A stretch of DNA of 64,000 nt from NCBI RefSeq assembly GCF_010731755.1, contig NZ_AP022589.1, positions 1,488,001-1,552,000 of the forward strand, read 5' to 3'. Positions 49,865 through 62,694 of the stretch are shown here, one piece after another (positions within the stretch are counted from its first letter, which is position 1; each line of letters begins with the position of its first letter). The notes beneath the pieces are model-generated. The model was given only the letters and a program-made list of their open reading frames with translations. It searched no databases and had not been told where the DNA came from. Both the position numbers and the translations under genes were made by a program. The DNA is from Mycolicibacter minnesotensis. Its GTDB lineage: Bacteria > Actinomycetota > Actinomycetes > Mycobacteriales > Mycobacteriaceae.

Positions 49865-51400
49865 CTATGCGTCAACTGTGAACGGCAGCCGAACCGTGAA
49901 TTCGGTTAATCCGGGCGCGCTTCGCACACCGATAGTGCCCCGGTGGGCCTTGACCACCGCCGACACGATGGCCAGCCCTAACCCGGTACTGCCTTCCTTA
50001 CGAGACCGGGACGTGTCGCCTCGGGCGAACCGTTCGAACACTTCCGACTGCAACTGCTCCGGAATGCCAGGGCCGTCGTCGATCACCTTGAGCACCGCGT
50101 AGGGCCCGTCGGCAGTCAGCTTCGTCGACACCACGGTGCCCGGACCGGTGTGGATGCGGGCGTTGGCGAGCAGGTTGGTCAGCACCTGGTGCAAACGCGC
50201 CGCGTCACCGGGCACGGTCACCGGCACGTCGGGCAGATCAAGGCGCCATTCGTGGTCCGGGCCGGCGACATGGGCGTCGCTGACCGCGTCAACCGCGAGG
50301 TGCGACAGATCGACCGGCTCATGCTCCAGCGGCCGCCCGGAATCCAGCCGGGCCAACAGCAGCAGGTCCTCGACCAGTTGCGTCATCCGTTCGGTTTCGG
50401 ACCGCACCCGGCTCAGAGCATGCGCGACCGCCTCGGCGTCCTCGGAGTCGCCGCCAGTTGCGGAAGACTGAACTCGTTGCGCCAGTTCGGTGTAACCGCG
50501 GATGGCGGTGAGCGGGGTACGCAGCTCGTGGCTGGCGTCAGCGACAAACTGCCGCACCCGGGTTTCGCTGGCCTGCCGCGTCGACAGCGCGGCAGCGATG
50601 TGGTCGAGCATCCGATTGACCGCCAGGCCGAGCCGGCCCACCTCGGTCGACGGGTTCGCATCTGGTTCAGGCACCCGTACCGGCAACGCCACTTCCCCGC
50701 GGTCCAACGGCAGGTCGACGACCACCCCGGCGGTCTGGGCCACACGTGCCAGCGGTGCCAATGCGCGGCGGATGACCACGATGGCCGCCGTCGTTGCTGC
50801 GGCCAACGCGATGAGCGCGACCACCCCGAAGATCATCAGCACCCGGATCATCGTGTCGTCGACATCGGCCATCGGCAGGCCGGTGACGATGATGTCACCG
50901 GTGGCATCGTACCGGGCGGGGGTGGCGACAAGCCGGTAGCGTCCGAGCCCGTCGAGGTCGCGAGTCACCGGCACGCGGTCGGCGGCCCGCGCTGCCAGCT
51001 GTTGCGCCGCGGCGTCGGTCAGCGCCGCCCGCGCTCCGTTCCCCGTCAGATGCCCGGCGTTGATCGTCGTGCCGTCGTGGACCACGGCCGCCACCATGCC
51101 GACCCGCTGGCCCGGAACGTCGAGAAAGTCCGGCCCCGGGCCAGGCCTTGGATACGGGTGCCGCTGACGCCACCACGCCGGCGGAGGCGGGGGTGCCGGT
51201 TCGCCGTAGAAGGCCGCTGAACGGTGAGCAGCCTTGTGCAGCTCTTGATCGAGCTGGCCCACCAGATACTGATGTAGCGCCACTTCGGTCACCACGCCGA
51301 TGCCAATACACGCAACTGCCAACACGATGACCTGGCCGAGCAGCAATCTGGCCCGCAGTGACCATGGCCGCCGGAGGTCAGAGAGCCGGCTTGAGCACAT
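49865..51400 (-). CDS. sensor histidine kinase (TcrY-like)
   Basis: A 511-residue kinase. TM1 is at about 15-40. An extracytoplasmic domain (about 41-185) holds an unusual Pro/Trp/Arg-rich stretch (PAPPPPPAWWRQRHPYPRP). TM2 at about 188-212 is followed by HAMP, the H-box FVADASHELRTPLTAIRGY, N-box NLLANARIHT, and G boxes DDGPGIP and GLGLAIV. It overlaps the response regulator by 23 bp. Similar to TcrY of M. tuberculosis. The signal is unknown; control of the downstream glycosyltransferases is inferred from gene order. Confidence 0.92.
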   Translation of the reverse strand: MCSSRLSDLRRPWSLRARLLLGQVIVLAVACIGIGVVTEVALHQYLVGQLDQELHKAAHRSAAFYGEPAPPPPPAWWRQRHPYPRPGPGPDFLDVPGQRVGMVAAVVHDGTTINAGHLTGNGARAALTDAAAQQLAARAADRVPVTRDLDGLGRYRLVATPARYDATGDIIVTGLPMADVDDTMIRVLMIFGVVALIALAAATTAAIVVIRRALAPLARVAQTAGVVVDLPLDRGEVALPVRVPEPDANPSTEVGRLGLAVNRMLDHIAAALSTRQASETRVRQFVADASHELRTPLTAIRGYTELAQRVQSSATGGDSEDAEAVAHALSRVRSETERMTQLVEDLLLLARLDSGRPLEHEPVDLSHLAVDAVSDAHVAGPDHEWRLDLPDVPVTVPGDAARLHQVLTNLLANARIHTGPGTVVSTKLTADGPYAVLKVIDDGPGIPEQLQSEVFERFARGDTSRSRKEGSTGLGLAIVSAVVKAHRGTIGVRSAPGLTEFTVRLPFTVDA

Positions 51401-52118: not shown

Positions 52119-52315
52119 CGCATTCCAGTATGTCGCCGGCGATGGGTGCTCGCTGTATAGACACTATGCGTGCGCTGTGGACCGGAACCCACCTAGTACC
52201 CACACCCAGGCATAGCGAATTCACAGTTCGGAGCTATCTGACGCCCATCCGGCCGCTCTAGCTTCGATTGGGACGGAACCTGATTCGTCAAGAGCGGAAA
52301 GGCATCCCAATAATT

Positions 52316-52633
52316 ATGAATTCTGCGTATCTACGTCATCGGCTGCTGTGGTCAGCTGCGCTGAGCGGGGGCATCGCCCTGGCCGGCGTCGGGATTAGTG
52401 CAGCTGTCGCAGGCGCCGAACCGCCGCTCCCGCCCCCAGGTCACTGCCAACCATTCCAGCACTGCCCCGGCGGTCCGGGCGGCCCGCACACCGGCGGTCC
52501 CGGCGGTCCCGGCGGCCTGGGCGGCCCCGGCGGTCCCGGCGGCCCCGGCGGCCCGCACACCGGCGGTCCCGGCGGTCCCGGCGGTCCGGGCGGTCCCGGC
52601 GGCCTGGGCGGCCCCGGCGGTACGCGTCCCTAA
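52316..52633 (+). CDS. small exported Gly-Gly-Pro repeat (collagen-like) protein
   Basis: A 105-residue protein with a signal peptide (LLWSAALSGGIALAGVGIS, cleavage near AGA-E, residue 34). A two-Cys segment (HCQPFQHC) precedes about 55 residues of Gly-Gly-Pro repeats interrupted twice by HTGG and twice by GGLGG. Function unknown. A TAGCTT hexamer at 52259-52264 could be its -10. It diverges from the response regulator, and GPGGPGG runs also occur in the neighbouring GT39-type protein. The ATG at 52316 puts the signal peptide at the N-terminus; the in-frame start at 52268 is less likely. Confidence 0.72.
   Translation: MNSAYLRHRLLWSAALSGGIALAGVGISAAVAGAEPPLPPPGHCQPFQHCPGGPGGPHTGGPGGPGGLGGPGGPGGPGGPHTGGPGGPGGPGGPGGLGGPGGTRP
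52481..52584 (+). repeat. 35-bp direct repeat within the Gly-Gly-Pro coding region
   Basis: 52481-52515 is repeated exactly at 52550-52584 (69-bp period), within a longer GGCGGTCCC-type tandem array. The unit keeps the reading frame. Such arrays readily change copy number. Confidence 0.8.
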
Positions 52634-55404: not shown

Positions 55405-55474
55405 CGCCATTTACACGCCGCAGAGTTTCTGAAGTACTTGTGCGGTCCACGAAGACGAGCTAAGGTTTATTGCT

Positions 55475-55783
55475 GTGGACGATCGTCACAAAGATCCAAC
55501 CGTAGTGCTGCCCTACCTTGTGGGCCGGCCGCTCGGAGCGACCGAGGTCTACGAGGCATTCGGCTACCGTAAATCGGCCTATTACAAGGCAGCGCACGAA
55601 GGTCGGCTGATCAGTGCCGACAACCTGATCCGCGTCGCCCGGTACTTCGGGCTCAACCCGGTCGACCTGCAGGTACGGTTCGGATTAATCGAGCACGACG
55701 CGGTTGCCGAATACCTGGAGTCGTCCGAGCGCCCCCTGCGTCTGGGTGATCTCAAGGCGGATCTGGGCAAACCGCCCGTCTAA
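55475..55783 (+). CDS. small HTH regulator heading the membrane-protein cluster
   Basis: A 102-residue protein starting with GTG. Residues about 16-75 form an XRE-like or immunity-repressor-like helix-turn-helix: PLGATEVYEAFGYRKSAYYK, then a basic turn, then ISADNLIRVARYFGLNPVDL. A C-terminal LRLGDLKADLG tail follows. The arrangement resembles short repressors of actinobacterial mobile elements and regulators next to membrane-protein genes. No ImmA/IrrE protease gene is present. It lies 29 bp before the first of three paralogous membrane proteins. Confidence 0.7.
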   Translation: MDDRHKDPTVVLPYLVGRPLGATEVYEAFGYRKSAYYKAAHEGRLISADNLIRVARYFGLNPVDLQVRFGLIEHDAVAEYLESSERPLRLGDLKADLGKPPV

Positions 55784-55812
55784 AACCGCCATTAGCAAGT
55801 ACCGTCGGACGC

Positions 55813-56568
55813 ATGACGCCGGCGTTAATTGGCGCCACCGTGGTGGTCGCGCTCTACAGCCTGTGGGTGCGTCGTGATACCTGGTGGTCGCGGTGGGAGA
55901 TCGGCATCACCCTGGCCATCGCACTGGAGACCATCGCACTGGTGCTGATGTCGCCGTGGGCGGCCCAGACCCTGGGCCCCTGGGCGCACCGGGCGCTGCG
56001 GATATGGAACACGCAGCAGCTGGCCGGGCACATCTGCTTCGTGATCGCCGTCGCCGCCAACATCTACCACGTGCTGGCTCGGCTGGCCGACTTCGACAAA
56101 GTCCGTCCGCTGTTCCGCCTGCAGGTGCGATTGCCCATCCAGCTCGGCGTGATGGCGCTGGTGGTGACGTTCGTGATCGCCGACGCGGGCTACCGCCCGG
56201 ATGGATTCTCGACGCTCGGGGGCGGTGGCGCTTGGGCACGTGCGTACTGGGTGCTGTTGTCCCTGCTGATGATCTACCTCGCCGGCTACGCAACACGCGT
56301 GCTGTCGATGCTGCGGTCTGATCCGCGCGCCAAGGAGACCGTCGAGCTCTACACCGCCTCGACGGCTTTCGCGGTAGCGGGCATCATGGCGATGATGAGC
56401 AACGCCTGGACCAAAGACGGTGTGAGCCAGCTGATCTGGCTGTGCGCATGCATCTCCGTGACGATCTTCGCCTATGGTTCAGCCCGCTCCTGGCGAGCCA
56501 AAGCCGCATGGTTCGCCAGCAGCGCGCGTCCGCTCGCAGAACCCCGTCCCCCGCAAGCGCTGTCGTGA
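55813..56568 (+). CDS. polytopic membrane protein, paralogue 1 of 3
   Basis: A 251-residue protein with about seven hydrophobic helices and no recognised domain. Blocks conserved with the next two genes: LWVRRDTWWSRWE (residues 17-29), SPWAA, IWNTQQ, NIYHVLARLAD (83-93), YLAGYATRVL and ARSWRAKAAWF near the C-terminus. The His in NIYH and the Asn/Gln of NTQQ lie in or near membrane segments and could bind a ligand. The topology recalls MAB_1171c/DUF6545-type proteins, but that is only an impression. It is the most diverged of the three. Confidence 0.75.
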   Translation: MTPALIGATVVVALYSLWVRRDTWWSRWEIGITLAIALETIALVLMSPWAAQTLGPWAHRALRIWNTQQLAGHICFVIAVAANIYHVLARLADFDKVRPLFRLQVRLPIQLGVMALVVTFVIADAGYRPDGFSTLGGGGAWARAYWVLLSLLMIYLAGYATRVLSMLRSDPRAKETVELYTASTAFAVAGIMAMMSNAWTKDGVSQLIWLCACISVTIFAYGSARSWRAKAAWFASSARPLAEPRPPQALS

Positions 56569-56577
56569 GAACCCTCG

Positions 56578-56676
56578 ATGACCTCAGGAATCATTGTCAC
56601 CACGCTGGCGGTTGCCGCCGGTAACCGCTGGGCCCACCGGGTCGCAGACGACGAGACGGTGAACGGCGCTCCATGA
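56578..56676 (+). pseudogene. 32-codon ORF, possible remnant of a fourth paralogue
   Basis: ATG at 56578 to TGA at 56676, whose last bases overlap the ATG of paralogue 2 (ATGA). The peptide begins MTSGIIVTTLAVAAG, close to MTTAFIVTTLVMVAY of paralogue 2, then loses similarity (NRWAHRVADDETVNG). It may be a decayed N-terminal fragment of another copy, or a leader peptide that couples translation. Confidence 0.4.
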
Positions 56677-57410
56677 CAACAGCGTTCATCGTGACCACCC
56701 TGGTGATGGTCGCCTACTGCTTGTGGGTTCGCCGCGACACCTGGAGGTCACGCTGGGAGGCCGGTGCCACCTTTGCCATCGCCATGGAGGGCCTCGGCCT
56801 GCTGCTGCTGTCGCCGTGGGCGGCGACCGAGCTGAGCCCACCCCTGCACACCATCCTGGGACTGTGGAACACCCAGCAGGTGCTCGGCTGGCTGTGCCTG
56901 CTGGCGGGAGTGCTGGGCAACATCTACCACATGCTGGTGCGCTTGACCGATCCCGCGCACGTGTGGCCGATCATGCGCAGGCACCTGCTGATACCGGTGG
57001 GGCTGAGCCTCACCGTCATCCTGGTGGCCTTCGTCAATGCCGAACGCGGATTCGAACCAGACCTGTTCGCCCGCCTCACCGGCGACCCATGGGTGACCGT
57101 CATCGAGGCGACCGCCGCCGCGATCGTGCTCTATCTGAGCGGGTACGTCGCCCGACTGCTGCTGTCACTGCGACACGATCACCGGGCCAGAACCACCCTG
57201 GGCATGTACGTGGCGGCGATGGGTTTCGCCGTGGCCGGTTGCGTGGCCGCCGTCTTCTCGATCTGGACCGGGCACTACGTCGGACCGGCGATCTGGGCCT
57301 GCGTATGCCTCTCGGTGGCGACCTTCGCCTACGGGCTGGCGAGATCCTGGCGGGCCAAGAACGCCTGGTTCACCGCCGACGGCGGCGAATCGGTGACCGA
57401 GGCGCAATGA
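56673..57410 (+). CDS. polytopic membrane protein, paralogue 2 of 3
   Basis: A 245-residue, about seven-helix protein with the family blocks LWVRRDTWRSRWEAG, LWNTQQVLGWLC, NIYHMLVRLTD, YLSGYVARLLLSL and ARSWRAKNAWF. It is closer to paralogue 3 than to paralogue 1. It overlaps both its neighbours (the 32-codon ORF and paralogue 3) by 4 bp, so the group is translated as a unit. No function known. Confidence 0.8.
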   Translation: MTTAFIVTTLVMVAYCLWVRRDTWRSRWEAGATFAIAMEGLGLLLLSPWAATELSPPLHTILGLWNTQQVLGWLCLLAGVLGNIYHMLVRLTDPAHVWPIMRRHLLIPVGLSLTVILVAFVNAERGFEPDLFARLTGDPWVTVIEATAAAIVLYLSGYVARLLLSLRHDHRARTTLGMYVAAMGFAVAGCVAAVFSIWTGHYVGPAIWACVCLSVATFAYGLARSWRAKNAWFTADGGESVTEAQ

Positions 57411-58138
57411 CTGCGGTGTTCATCGCGGTCACCCTGATGATCGTCACCTACAGCCTGTGGGTTCGTCGCGACACCTGGTGGTCGCGCTGGGAGGCCGGCG
57501 CCACCCTTGCCATCGCCCTGCAGGGTTGCGCACTGCTGCTGCTGACCCCATGGGCGGGCACGGAGCTGGGCCCACCGCTGCACAGCCTGCTGGGGCTGTG
57601 GAACGTCCAGCAGGTACTCGGTTGGTTGTGCCTGATCGCGGCGGTGATCGGGAACATCTACCACATGCTGGTGCGTCTCGCCGATCCCACGCATGTGTGG
57701 CCGATCATGCGCAACCATCTCCTGATGCCGGTGGGCGCGGGTGTCGCGGTGGTCGTGGTGGCGTTCGCCAATGCCAAACGCGGTTACGAACCAGATATGT
57801 ACGCGCGCCTAAGCGGAAACCGTTGGGTGACCGTCGTCGAGGTGACGTCCGTTGCCCTGATGCTCTATCTGGCCGGGTACGTCGGCAGACTGATGGTGTC
57901 GCTGCGCCACGATCAGCGGGCCAGGACCACGCTCGCGCTGTATGCGGCGTCCATGGCTTTCGGGGTGACAGCCTGTGTTGTCGCGGTCACCTCAAGCTGG
58001 GTGGGCGGTTACGCCGGCCCCGCCATCTGGGCCGGCGTCTGCGCGTCGGTGGCGGTCCTTGCCTATGGGCTGGCACGTTCCTGGCAGGCTAAGAAATCCT
58101 GGTTTGCGCCGGACACCTCCGCGCCCCGCAACGGTTGA
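57407..58138 (+). CDS. polytopic membrane protein, paralogue 3 of 3
   Basis: A 243-residue homologue of the preceding gene, with LWVRRDTWWSRWEAG, LWNVQQVLGWLC, NIYHMLVRLAD, YLAGYVGRLMVSL and ARSWQAKKSWF. The ATG overlaps the preceding stop (ATGA). It converges on the BlaI-type gene 67 bp away. Function unknown; the conserved Arg/Trp-rich first loop and the NIYH motif are the best clues. Confidence 0.8.
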   Translation: MTAVFIAVTLMIVTYSLWVRRDTWWSRWEAGATLAIALQGCALLLLTPWAGTELGPPLHSLLGLWNVQQVLGWLCLIAAVIGNIYHMLVRLADPTHVWPIMRNHLLMPVGAGVAVVVVAFANAKRGYEPDMYARLSGNRWVTVVEVTSVALMLYLAGYVGRLMVSLRHDQRARTTLALYAASMAFGVTACVVAVTSSWVGGYAGPAIWAGVCASVAVLAYGLARSWQAKKSWFAPDTSAPRNG

Positions 58139-58204: not shown

Positions 58205-58582
58205 TCACGCATCGTTGAGGTCGGCAAGAGCGCGCCGCAGAGCGGTGGCTTCGTCGGCGCCGACACGCTCCACAAAGTGGACCAGCGCAGCCTCCCGGCC
58301 GCCGGAATCGGCCACCTGATCGAGCGCATCGGACATGAGCTCAGCGACCAACTCGGCACGGCCACGCCTGGGCACATAGCGGTGCGCGCGATGGTCACGG
58401 CGCTGGATCACCAGGTTCTTCTTCGCAAGGCGTTGCAGCACAGTCATGATCGTCGTATAGGCGAGGTTTCGCTTGACCGACACCGATGAGTGCACCTCAC
58501 GGACGGTCAACGAACCCGACGCCGACCACAGGCACTCCATGACGGTGCGTTCGAGATCGCCCAACCCAACACGCGCAGCCAT
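58205..58582 (-). CDS. BlaI/MecI-family repressor
   Basis: A 125-residue winged-helix protein: LGDLERTVMECLWSASG, then LAYTTIMTVLQRLAKKNLV (recognition helix and wing), then a C-terminal dimerisation helix pair. BlaI proteins are usually freed by the sensor protease BlaR, but no blaR gene is adjacent here. A strong AGGAGGT precedes the ATG. The promoter region contains a near-consensus IdeR box, so expression is probably iron-dependent. Targets unknown. Confidence 0.88.
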   Translation of the reverse strand: MAARVGLGDLERTVMECLWSASGSLTVREVHSSVSVKRNLAYTTIMTVLQRLAKKNLVIQRRDHRAHRYVPRRGRAELVAELMSDALDQVADSGGREAALVHFVERVGADEATALRRALADLNDA

Positions 58583-58658
58583 AGCCGGTTACCTCCTACG
58601 GCGTTTCACCGCCGTCCTTGTCAACCACGGGCGGCAACCCAAACGCACCACCCCGTCA

Positions 58659-58677
58659 GTAGGTAAGGCTAACCTAA
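58659..58677. promoter_or_regulatory. IdeR (iron) box upstream of the BlaI-type gene
   Basis: GTAGGTAAGGCTAACCTAA matches the IdeR consensus TTAGGTTAGGCTAACCTAA at 17 of 19 positions. It lies 77 bp upstream of the BlaI-type start, the only protein gene it could control in that direction. IdeR with Fe(II) represses or activates genes through such boxes. Confidence 0.7.
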
Positions 58678-58715
58678 TTGTGCATGGGGTGGGGTTGTCC
58701 GGACCCAGAAAACAG

Positions 58716-58744
58716 AAAAAGCCCCGGCCTGAGCCGGAGCTTTT
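58716..58744 (-). terminator. intrinsic terminator after tRNA-Arg
   Basis: Read on the minus strand, AAAAGCTCCGGC-TCAG-GCCGGGGCTTTTT forms a stem with one G-U pair, followed by a T-rich tract. It lies 13 nt beyond the 3' end of tRNA-Arg(ACG) and is the most classical rho-independent terminator in the window. Confidence 0.85.
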
Positions 58745-58756
58745 CTGTATCCACAG

Positions 58757-58829
58757 TGCGCCCGAAGGGATTCGAACCCCCAACCTTCTGATCCGTAGTC
58801 AGATGCTCTATCCGTTGAGCTACGGGCGC
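58757..58829 (-). tRNA. tRNA-Arg(ACG)
   Basis: A 73-nt tRNA. The acceptor stem pairs GCGCCCG with CGGGCGC, the anticodon loop CTACGGA carries ACG, and the T arm is GGGGGTTCGAATCCCTT. Its A34 is the substrate of TadA, encoded at 38926-39393. Confidence 0.96.
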
Positions 58830-58866
58830 CGGTCTTCAGTTGTCGGTCGAGCAAGCCCGGCCGTTG

Positions 58867-58955
58867 CGGAGGCGAGAGGATTTGAACCTCCGGTCCCCCG
58901 TAAAGGGGACAACTCATTAGCAGTGAGTCCCATTCGGCCGCTCTGGCACGCCTCC
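58867..58955 (-). tRNA. tRNA-Ser(GCT)
   Basis: An 89-nt type-II tRNA. The acceptor stem pairs GGAGGCG with CGCCTCC, the anticodon loop CTGCTAA carries GCT (reads AGC/AGU), and the long variable arm is built on GTCCCCTTTACGGGGGAC. T arm GGAGGTTCAAATCCTCT. Confidence 0.96.
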
Positions 58956-59028
58956 CGAACTCGTTGAGGGTACCGGATCACTCCCCCAGTTCTGAAACCG
59001 CGGGCCAATAGACCGCACACGCTCCACA

Positions 59029-61105: not shown

Positions 61106-62062
61106 TCACGGCCGCAGCACGAGATCGTCCTGACGATCGCGCACCGCGGCAGTCTGGTTTCGACTTTCACCGCTCAGCAACGAGGCGACCACGGTGACGC
61201 CGAGCACGCCGACGATCACCAGCAGCGAAAGTCCCGTCCCGATCTCCACCACCGGGACCGGCCTGCCGTCGTTGATGAACGGCAGGTTGTTGTCGTGCAG
61301 TCCGTGCAGCACCAGCTTGGCGCCGATAAACGCCAATATCACGAACAGACCGGTCGAGAGATAAACCAACCGGTCCAGCAGGCCGTCGACCAGGAAGTAC
61401 AGCTGCCGCAGCCCCAGCAGCGCGAACGCAGTCGCGGTGAACACCGTGTAGGTGTCTCGGGTGAGGCCGAAGATCGCCGGCAGTGAGTCCAGCGCGAAGA
61501 TCACGTCGGTGCCGGCGATGGCGAGCATCACCACCAGCATCGGGGCGCGGGCGACCTTGCGGGCCAGGCGGGTGACGGCGGTGTCGCCCGTGGGAGCCTG
61601 ATGGTCACTGCCTGAGCGCAGCATCCCGGCGGCACTGAGCAACAGGATCAGGCCCAGCACGTAGAAGGCCCAGCTGAAGGTGTTGATCAACGCCACCCCG
61701 ACGAAGATGAATCCGGTTCGGGCGATCAACGACAAGATGATGCCGAACAGCAGAATCCTCTGCTGTTCGGCGGCGGGCACCCGGAATCGGGCCATGATGA
61801 CCAGGAACACGAACAGGTTGTCGACGGAGAGCGCCTTCTCGGTGACGTAGCCGGCGAAATACTCGGAACCGGCATCCACGCCACCGAAGGCGAACATGCC
61901 GAACCCGAACGCGACGGCGATGCCGACGTAGCCCGCCGACCACACCGCAGATTCCCTCAGGGTCGGAACGTGGGGCTGACGAACGTGAAAGACGAAGTCG
62001 AACACGAGCAATCCGACGAGGCCGACGATAGTCAGCCCCCAGGCCCAACCAGCAACGTTCAT
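61106..62062 (-). CDS. TerC-family membrane protein (metal-ion exporter type)
   Basis: A 318-residue protein with about nine helices and the TerC signatures EKALSVDNLFVFLVIM (about residues 75-90) and GTDVIFALDSLPAIFG (about 194-209), whose acidic residues likely bind metal. Relatives (Alx, YkoY, MeeF) export manganese or load exported metalloenzymes; older naming is tellurium resistance. No yybP-ykoY manganese riboswitch is seen in the 56-bp upstream spacer. It converges on the DUF4334 gene. Confidence 0.92.
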   Translation of the reverse strand: MNVAGWAWGLTIVGLVGLLVFDFVFHVRQPHVPTLRESAVWSAGYVGIAVAFGFGMFAFGGVDAGSEYFAGYVTEKALSVDNLFVFLVIMARFRVPAAEQQRILLFGIILSLIARTGFIFVGVALINTFSWAFYVLGLILLLSAAGMLRSGSDHQAPTGDTAVTRLARKVARAPMLVVMLAIAGTDVIFALDSLPAIFGLTRDTYTVFTATAFALLGLRQLYFLVDGLLDRLVYLSTGLFVILAFIGAKLVLHGLHDNNLPFINDGRPVPVVEIGTGLSLLVIVGVLGVTVVASLLSGESRNQTAAVRDRQDDLVLRP

Positions 62063-62118: not shown

Positions 62119-62694
62119 CTATGACCGGCCGGTGAAGGCGAGGAGCCTTTCCAGGCTCGATGCCGAATCGTCGACGTCGATCGGGTCATCGAAGCCCGCT
62201 CGCACTCGGCCCTCCGGCGTGATGATCGCGCGGACCAGGCCCAGCACGTACTCGGCCAAGGGCTCTGCCACGTTCACGGTGCGACCGGTGGCCGTCGCGT
62301 AGTCCCAGGCATGCACCAGGAACTCCAGCGACAGAATCCCCGCCGCCATCCGCGCAGGCAGTTCACTGGGACCGATGGTGACCGTGCCGTCCAGGCCGCG
62401 GCCGTGCCAGGCGTCCAAAGCGGGCCGGGCCACGGAGGTGACCTGCCGGGCCACCGCAGCGCCTGCGTCGCGTGGGGGCAACTGCGCGCCCGCTGCGCCT
62501 CCGATCACGGTGATGGAGTGCAGCAGATGCTCCGTCAGCTGCGCGACGTCGAACTCCGAGCACGGTGTCTGGTTGGACCATTGGTCGCCGGTGATGCTGT
62601 CGAGCACCTGCTCCAGCACCGCCCATCCGGCCTGGGCGGCGGCGAGCTCGTCGACGGGAGGCGCATCAGGGCTGGGTCGCATCTCGGGGGCCAT
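62119..62694 (-). CDS. TIGR03086/DinB-like metal-binding protein
   Basis: A 191-residue four-helix-bundle protein of the mycothiol-dependent maleylpyruvate isomerase N-terminal-like group. TPCSEFDVAQLTEHLLHSI carries the first His, and FLVHAWDYATATGR supplies another. These proteins bind a metal and may use mycothiol in conjugation or isomerisation. No sterol-carrier C-terminal domain follows. It lies 56 bp upstream of terC and diverges from echA21 across 23 bp. Confidence 0.85.
   Translation of the reverse strand: MAPEMRPSPDAPPVDELAAAQAGWAVLEQVLDSITGDQWSNQTPCSEFDVAQLTEHLLHSITVIGGAAGAQLPPRDAGAAVARQVTSVARPALDAWHGRGLDGTVTIGPSELPARMAAGILSLEFLVHAWDYATATGRTVNVAEPLAEYVLGLVRAIITPEGRVRAGFDDPIDVDDSASSLERLLAFTGRS

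Follow-up and report, generated by a model that had tools for sequence, protein, structure and literature searches.

Known pairs in temperate mycobacteriophages

The closest described relatives of the locus presented here are found in the cluster K phages Adephagia and CrimD. In Adephagia, gene 42 lies next to the repressor gene 43, and gp42 has no known function according to a report (PMC11373665) that also describes several cluster K phages as therapeutically useful. These phages turn lytic when the repressor is removed (PMC12699233). The locus itself lies in a stretch of 64,000 nucleotides, called the window below, which covers positions 1,488,001-1,552,000 of the single-contig 4.22 Mb genome of Mycolicibacter minnesotensis; most of the named organisms with the nearest protein relatives are likewise species of Mycolicibacter. 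At 55475-58138 it has one gene for a helix-turn-helix (HTH) protein followed by three tandem paralogous genes for seven-transmembrane (7-TM) proteins, all on the plus strand. As in Adephagia and CrimD, where gp43 is followed by gp42, a repressor gene precedes a co-directional 7-TM gene, and the window HTH is 52% identical to CrimD gp43 over 81 amino acids. Unlike the phage pair, which is placed between cro/excisionase and integrase, the window cassette is situated among host genes and possesses three 7-TM copies.

A preliminary description had proposed this arrangement, from the letters of the DNA, as a candidate undescribed system. The gene layout that it gave, including the last two overlapping genes, is confirmed by the open reading frames (ORFs), hydropathy and an AlphaFold2 (AF2) model, with the correction that the 104-bp interval from the first 7-TM gene to the second holds the remnant of a deleted further copy. 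The term undescribed has to be limited to function, because the two genes are known as an adjoining repressor/membrane-protein pair of temperate mycobacteriophages. Sequence comparison gives good support to the identification of the cassette as a chromosomal, expanded form of that pair; that a receptor-like 7-TM protein modulates the repressor is put forward tentatively, as an explanation falling somewhat short of probable. The features are:

55438..55466, plus strand: promoter, with -35 TTGTGC at 55438-55443, a 17-bp spacer and -10 TAAGGT at 55461-55466
55475..55783, plus strand: HTH immunity-repressor homologue, 102 amino acids, GTG start; phrog_1746, E 1.5e-27
55813..56568, plus strand: 7-TM protein of the copy-1 type, 251 amino acids; phrog_950, E 1.7e-51
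56569..56672, plus strand: remnant of a deleted further 7-TM copy, 104 bp, with its start region and then its last codons
56673..57410, plus strand: second 7-TM protein, 245 amino acids, grouping in the tree with the third copy of other species; phrog_950, E 1.4e-46
57407..58138, plus strand: third 7-TM protein, 243 amino acids, grouping likewise with the third copy of other species; phrog_950, E 8.2e-44

The first 7-TM gene follows the end of the HTH gene after 29 bp on the same strand, and the second and third 7-TM ORFs overlap by 4 bp (57407-57410).

The repressor and its promoter

In the PHROGs profile search, the HTH protein matched phrog_1746, annotated as a transcriptional repressor, which agrees with the repressor-like character first attributed to it. 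On its sequence, it belongs to the mycobacteriophage immunity-repressor family of cluster K gp43, and 313 mycobacteriophage records are matched by it (tblastn, E 1e-5); when viral contigs were scanned with the HTH of the window as query, no relative was found. The gene is strongly conserved, with a median pairwise dN/dS (ratio of nonsynonymous to synonymous substitution rates) of 0.031 over 105 pairs from 15 Mycolicibacter genomes.

The -10 element ends only 8 nt upstream of the GTG start, so the mRNA is probably leaderless. The pattern TTGTG[CT]-N17-TAA[GC]GT-N6..9-GTGGACGA is present in all 21 aligned Mycolicibacter-type loci, window included, and was not seen upstream in the Mycolicibacter acidiphilus locus L080, which lies outside this set. 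Regarding operators, no convincing palindrome was found upstream of the HTH gene in the window lineage. In other lineages, operator-like palindromes that differ from one to another were noticed by eye (L045-L061, L081-L085, L177-L181), namely CCCA..TGGGA repeats in the ileS type, TTACGTnCAnGTAA-like sequences in the shimoidei type and GTTCAGT-N7-ACTGAAC in cluster K.

Despite differing linkers, the repressors often end in a short proline-hydrophobic tail of the type ..xPP(L/V), as seen in Toto (..REDAPPL), Redno2 (..RQDAPPI), Bromden, LeBron and Archie (..RTDIPPL), the ileS-type loci (..DAPPL) and the window (...ADLGKPPV). When scored as P[PSAG][LVI] followed by at most one residue more, the pattern occurs in nine of 14 phage repressors, is nearly reached in Gaia, GD03-1 and Snenia, and is absent from ZoeJ and prophiGD90-1. 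It is also absent from the repressors of Charlie, Brujita, Bxb1 (gp69), Fruitloop (gp44) and Angel (gp33), which by annotation have no adjoining gene of 7-TM size, and from Fruitloop gp37, likewise annotated as a repressor. Among the loci, 96 of 124 carry it (91/92 chromosomal, 3/5 phage records and 2/27 viral contigs, mostly ending PAP), compared with 3 of 187 other ORFs selected on their GC content; a similar pattern is present in 93 of 121 repressor proteins.

The membrane proteins and their predicted fold

All three 7-TM proteins match phrog_950, a family without annotated function, over most of their length. As first described, they keep WVRRDTWxSRWE (residue 18), NxQQ (66), NIYH (83) and ARSWxAKxxWF (223/224), and each shows seven hydrophobic segments in 19-residue hydropathy windows. 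The second and third are 68% identical (E 7e-120), the first and second 47% (E 8e-72). CrimD gp42 is a member of the same family (phrog_950, E 1.6e-91; 17% identity over 211 columns, hhalign probability 98.3). The first protein matches 230 mycobacteriophage records (tblastn, E 1e-5), and a query with Gaia gp67 matches 505 records under a permissive threshold (E up to 5) at which chance matches are included.

The absence of a characterised domain, noted at the outset, is consistent with the searches, as no Pfam or NCBIfam family was above cut-off for the cassette proteins and PADLOC gave no family for any of the four at E up to 1. DUF6545/MAB_1171c, suggested as a profile to check, is absent from the Pfam matches of the window proteins (E up to 1), and DUF6545 does not appear in the first 25 of 32 families displayed for a set of 68 members. 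A heme or ligand site at the His of NIYH was rejected: this residue is Asn in Gaia (VVYN), Toto (AAFN), GD03-1 and the ileS-type members.

The AF2 model of the first 7-TM protein has seven membrane helices, with a predicted local distance difference test score (pLDDT) of 92.4 and a predicted template modelling score (pTM) of 0.88. A similar fold is predicted for a close K1 homologue of gp42 (pLDDT 84), about 20% identical to the first window protein, the alignments of the two sharing rows. Both predicted models have a 7-TM shape like that of G-protein-coupled receptors (GPCRs) on animal cell surfaces, with the N-terminus outside and the C-terminus inside; the first inner loop is conserved and rich in Arg and Trp. 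No PDB sequence matched the 68-row 7-TM profile at E up to 1. Microbial rhodopsins, found at Foldseek ranks 4 and 45, were discarded as candidates, there being no lysine to bind retinal midway along helix 7 (205-237), where lysine exceeds 3 of 68 members only from residue 228 on, at the inner end. Both models also match structurally the membrane proteins of the Gordonia phages Sephiroth, Rabbitrun and Bantam (BFVD A0A7G9UZD0, A0A7G8LIL3 and A0A1B3AYD7); these homologues were found by structure only, the homologue searches of phage records having returned Mycobacterium phages only.

Conservation of the pair in phages and chromosomes

In the phages, the phrog_950 gene adjoins the repressor in all 14 contexts examined that carry it (E, J, K, L, Gaia, Bromden and Mycobacterium abscessus prophages), and from phage to phage the repressor family switches while the 7-TM partner is retained. 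For the chromosomes, 78 named loci (from the best 80 of 184) were joined with 37 viral loci and 23 further loci, and these 138 loci, in which some places are represented twice owing to overlap among the genome stretches, annotated phage records and the named or viral contigs, were searched with HTH profiles from which the tails had been removed to avoid circularity. An HTH gene was found in 123 of the 137 loci having a 7-TM gene, and in 76 of the 78 named chromosomal ones; of the 14 loci lacking it, one has broken genes (L056), three belong to a distinct 7-TM lineage (L057, L111, L125) and the other ten are viral contigs.

The linkage that the preliminary description asked to be surveyed is also conserved across genomes. 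Among 61 relatives, the 7-TM gene is present in 24 and the HTH gene in the identical 24; 37 of the 61 belong to the genus in the GTDB sense, and the 24 outside it have neither gene. Of the 248 genus genomes surveyed, 159 were positive for the 7-TM protein and 191 for the HTH, and by hand 157 of the 159 were found to be HTH-positive. The 34 genomes with only HTH show weak matches (E 1e-11 to 1e-18), except G158 (3e-36). Counting strong HTH matches (E<1e-19), both genes occur in 154 genomes, HTH alone in one, 7-TM alone in five and neither in 88, uncorrected for shared ancestry. Across 249 genomes of the order, 24 match, 23 of them in the genus and one, weakly (E 1e-6), elsewhere in the family. 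A hetero-oligomeric complex had been suggested; an obligate one of three proteins is unlikely and is rejected as a general rule, because 132 of the 159 positive genus genomes, by hand count, have a single 7-TM match.

Tandem arrays are characteristic of Mycolicibacter: at the window site, one HTH gene is followed by three or four 7-TM genes (L062-L079, L066 ending at a contig end), and L080 has two adjacent copies plus one further fragment. A single 7-TM gene follows a similar HTH gene in M. shimoidei, kyorinense, fragae, celatum and strain MFM001. In 20 stretches read more widely, of which 19 contain a 7-TM gene and one a solo HTH gene, and where only ileS, gcvP, sucB and recombinase neighbours were tested by profile, chromosomal cassettes adjoin ileS, gcvP and sucB.

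Several single loci depart from these arrangements. The chromosomal L060:5275-7843 has an HTH gene, a 7-TM gene and a convergent tyrosine-recombinase-like gene (NCBIfam match below cut-off), arranged as in phages, and may be read as a prophage piece or mobile cassette. In the ileS-type L056, both genes are broken: genome G002 is losing this cassette by decay. Next to glyS, at G000:C1:3403654-3404358 (L005), lies a diverged fourth 7-TM gene without HTH, with the relatives L057, L111 and L125 in other Mycolicibacter. A solo HTH gene at G000:C1:3989806-3990126 (L044:5804-6145) is about 70% identical to the window HTH, has no adjoining 7-TM gene and retains the tail NRPPL; similar HTH genes occur in G016 and G022.

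Evolution of the array

In the 15 Mycolicibacter genomes, copy 1 of the 7-TM genes has a median dN/dS of 0.32; the gene second in order has 0.44, and the third, compared in 9 genomes, 0.41, these two not being strict orthologues across all species. The median dN of the 7-TM genes exceeds that of the HTH gene about tenfold, and among the copy-1 orthologues variation is greater in the outer than in the inner halves of the helices (0.36 vs 0.26, p 0.009). Positive selection was not shown, every dN/dS being below 0.45. Moreover, the neighbouring genes 49865-51400, 61106-62062 and 62119-62694 reach 0.23-0.38, so the fast evolution of the 7-TM genes by itself speaks only weakly for an arms race.

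The tree places both the second and third 7-TM genes of the window within the third-copy clade. The remnant at 56569-56672 aligns with the second copy in L042 at 84% over 58 bp (start) and 95% over 21 bp (end), and with that in L063 at 83% and 95%; by these alignments, it is what persists in the window of the middle copy of other species. The third-copy placement together with the remnant therefore indicates that copies are born and lost next to a nearly fixed repressor.

Proposed mode of action and alternatives

A signalling or defence role, as proposed initially, is still the best guess. The data support the first part of the preferred explanation: a promoter conserved in nearly all Mycolicibacter arrays drives, probably through a leaderless mRNA, an immunity-type repressor, and the genes of the GPCR-shaped 7-TM proteins lie co-directionally downstream. 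As for its phage relatives, the repressor would bind operators at its own promoter and in related incoming phages, conferring immunity. The 7-TM protein would be its membrane partner, sensing the outside or the state of the membrane and either retaining the repressor or setting it free, perhaps by way of the repressor's conserved C-terminal tail. In the array, one nearly invariant repressor would serve several 7-TM proteins that are diverging from each other. We infer this signalling step. Weighing against it, solo repressors retain the tail, which need not then be a 7-TM contact and is not accepted as proof of binding. In a bolder form, which is rather improbable, the pair would be a prokaryotic counterpart of receptor/G-protein coupling in temperate mycobacteriophages and their hosts, the inner 7-TM pocket taking the repressor tail (..DAPPL/KPPV-COOH) and an outside signal setting repression, with three or four receptors of diverging outer faces reporting to one repressor in Mycolicibacter.

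The main rival is exclusion by the 7-TM protein alone: a factor expressed in lysogeny, similar to lambda RexB in position and independent of the repressor, would block or kill on infection by other phages, its copies multiplying under phage pressure. This is unlikely, though it deserves serious weight, as the gene sits by repressor and integrase in phages, evolves with the high dN, gene birth and loss and variable outer helix halves described above, and, when gene 42 of Adephagia is overexpressed, small colonies are reported (PMC11373665). However, the same study reports the homologues of Hammy and Waterfoul as nontoxic, PADLOC found no match, and the neighbours' dN/dS of up to 0.38 makes the speed of the 7-TM genes unexceptional. 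Also against it, the repressor family swaps among phages with a constant 7-TM partner, and the two are seldom apart.

It is more doubtful that a host regulatory pair, a repressor with a membrane sensor for host genes or for itself, was captured by phages, with phage immunity secondary. The conserved chromosomal cassettes by ileS, gcvP and sucB, the wide occurrence of 7-TM genes in the genus (159/248) and the palindromes seen by eye in several lineages speak for it. However, the insertion places differ by lineage, and this, with the recombinase-like neighbour in L060, indicates mobility. With the cluster K repressors, whose loss makes phages lytic (PMC12699233), the HTH shares about half of its residues, and the tree gives no direction of transfer. 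Lastly, the 104-bp remnant and the broken copies near ileS in G002 could suggest a decaying, functionless prophage remnant, but with dN/dS of 0.03 (HTH) and below 0.45 (7-TM), and the promoter kept in every aligned locus, this is very improbable.

Genomic neighbourhood

The cassette is flanked by an amidohydrolase gene on one side and, on the other, by a gene that we take to be BlaI-like (unmatched in NCBIfam at E 1e-10), then a pair of tRNA genes and hisC. The gene order is the same in the relatives G016 and G022, the BlaI-like gene being undetected in the G016 stretch. Neither cro/excisionase and integrase beside the HTH gene nor integrase or structural genes around the cassette were found, both sides being host genes; the remaining window was not scanned for phage genes. 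At 58304-58956 (minus strand), ARAGORN calls a transfer-messenger RNA with an odd tag, which extends over the genes for tRNA-Arg and tRNA-Ser as well as part of a BlaI-like ORF and is probably a false call. Further upstream, a Gly/Pro-rich tandem repeat (52464-52621; units of 9, 33, 60 and 69 bp) lies in a possible secreted-protein ORF (52268-52633).

Comparison with known systems

The pair is common to many temperate mycobacteriophages, including cluster K, and in it a conserved partner without known function is placed exactly where dormancy is decided. The pair was already known in phages; in the literature searched, as far as the accessible parts of the papers go (including PMC11373665, PMC8092301, PMC9934374, PMC3203893, PMC12699233 and PMC12235445), no function for the 7-TM protein, shared tail, GPCR-like fold or chromosomal multi-copy form is described. 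The receptor-like fold, the swap of repressor families and the chromosomal copies lead to a testable question, whether a membrane signal affects mycobacterial lysogeny or immunity. A phage-type repressor followed by three copies of its receptor-like partner suggests a membrane sensor not described before, with a link to the dormancy of phages or to immunity. The Butters and Sbash mycobacteriophage defence loci are comparable in that prophage-encoded proteins defend the host, with phrog_950 not named in the available portions of those reports. Compared to eukaryotic GPCRs (class C, GPR156, Smoothened and LYCHOS), the 7-TM proteins are not known to have a G protein and differ in size and loops, and no sequence relation was found in the PDB at E up to 1. 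In the cI-rexA-rexB region of lambda, as in this cassette, a prophage expresses a repressor with a membrane protein; RexB, unlike the 7-TM protein, has four helices and RexA as its partner. The ImmR-ImmA pair of ICEBs1 likewise places a phage-type repressor beside a dedicated partner, ImmA being a soluble protease, unlike the membrane-embedded 7-TM proteins described here.
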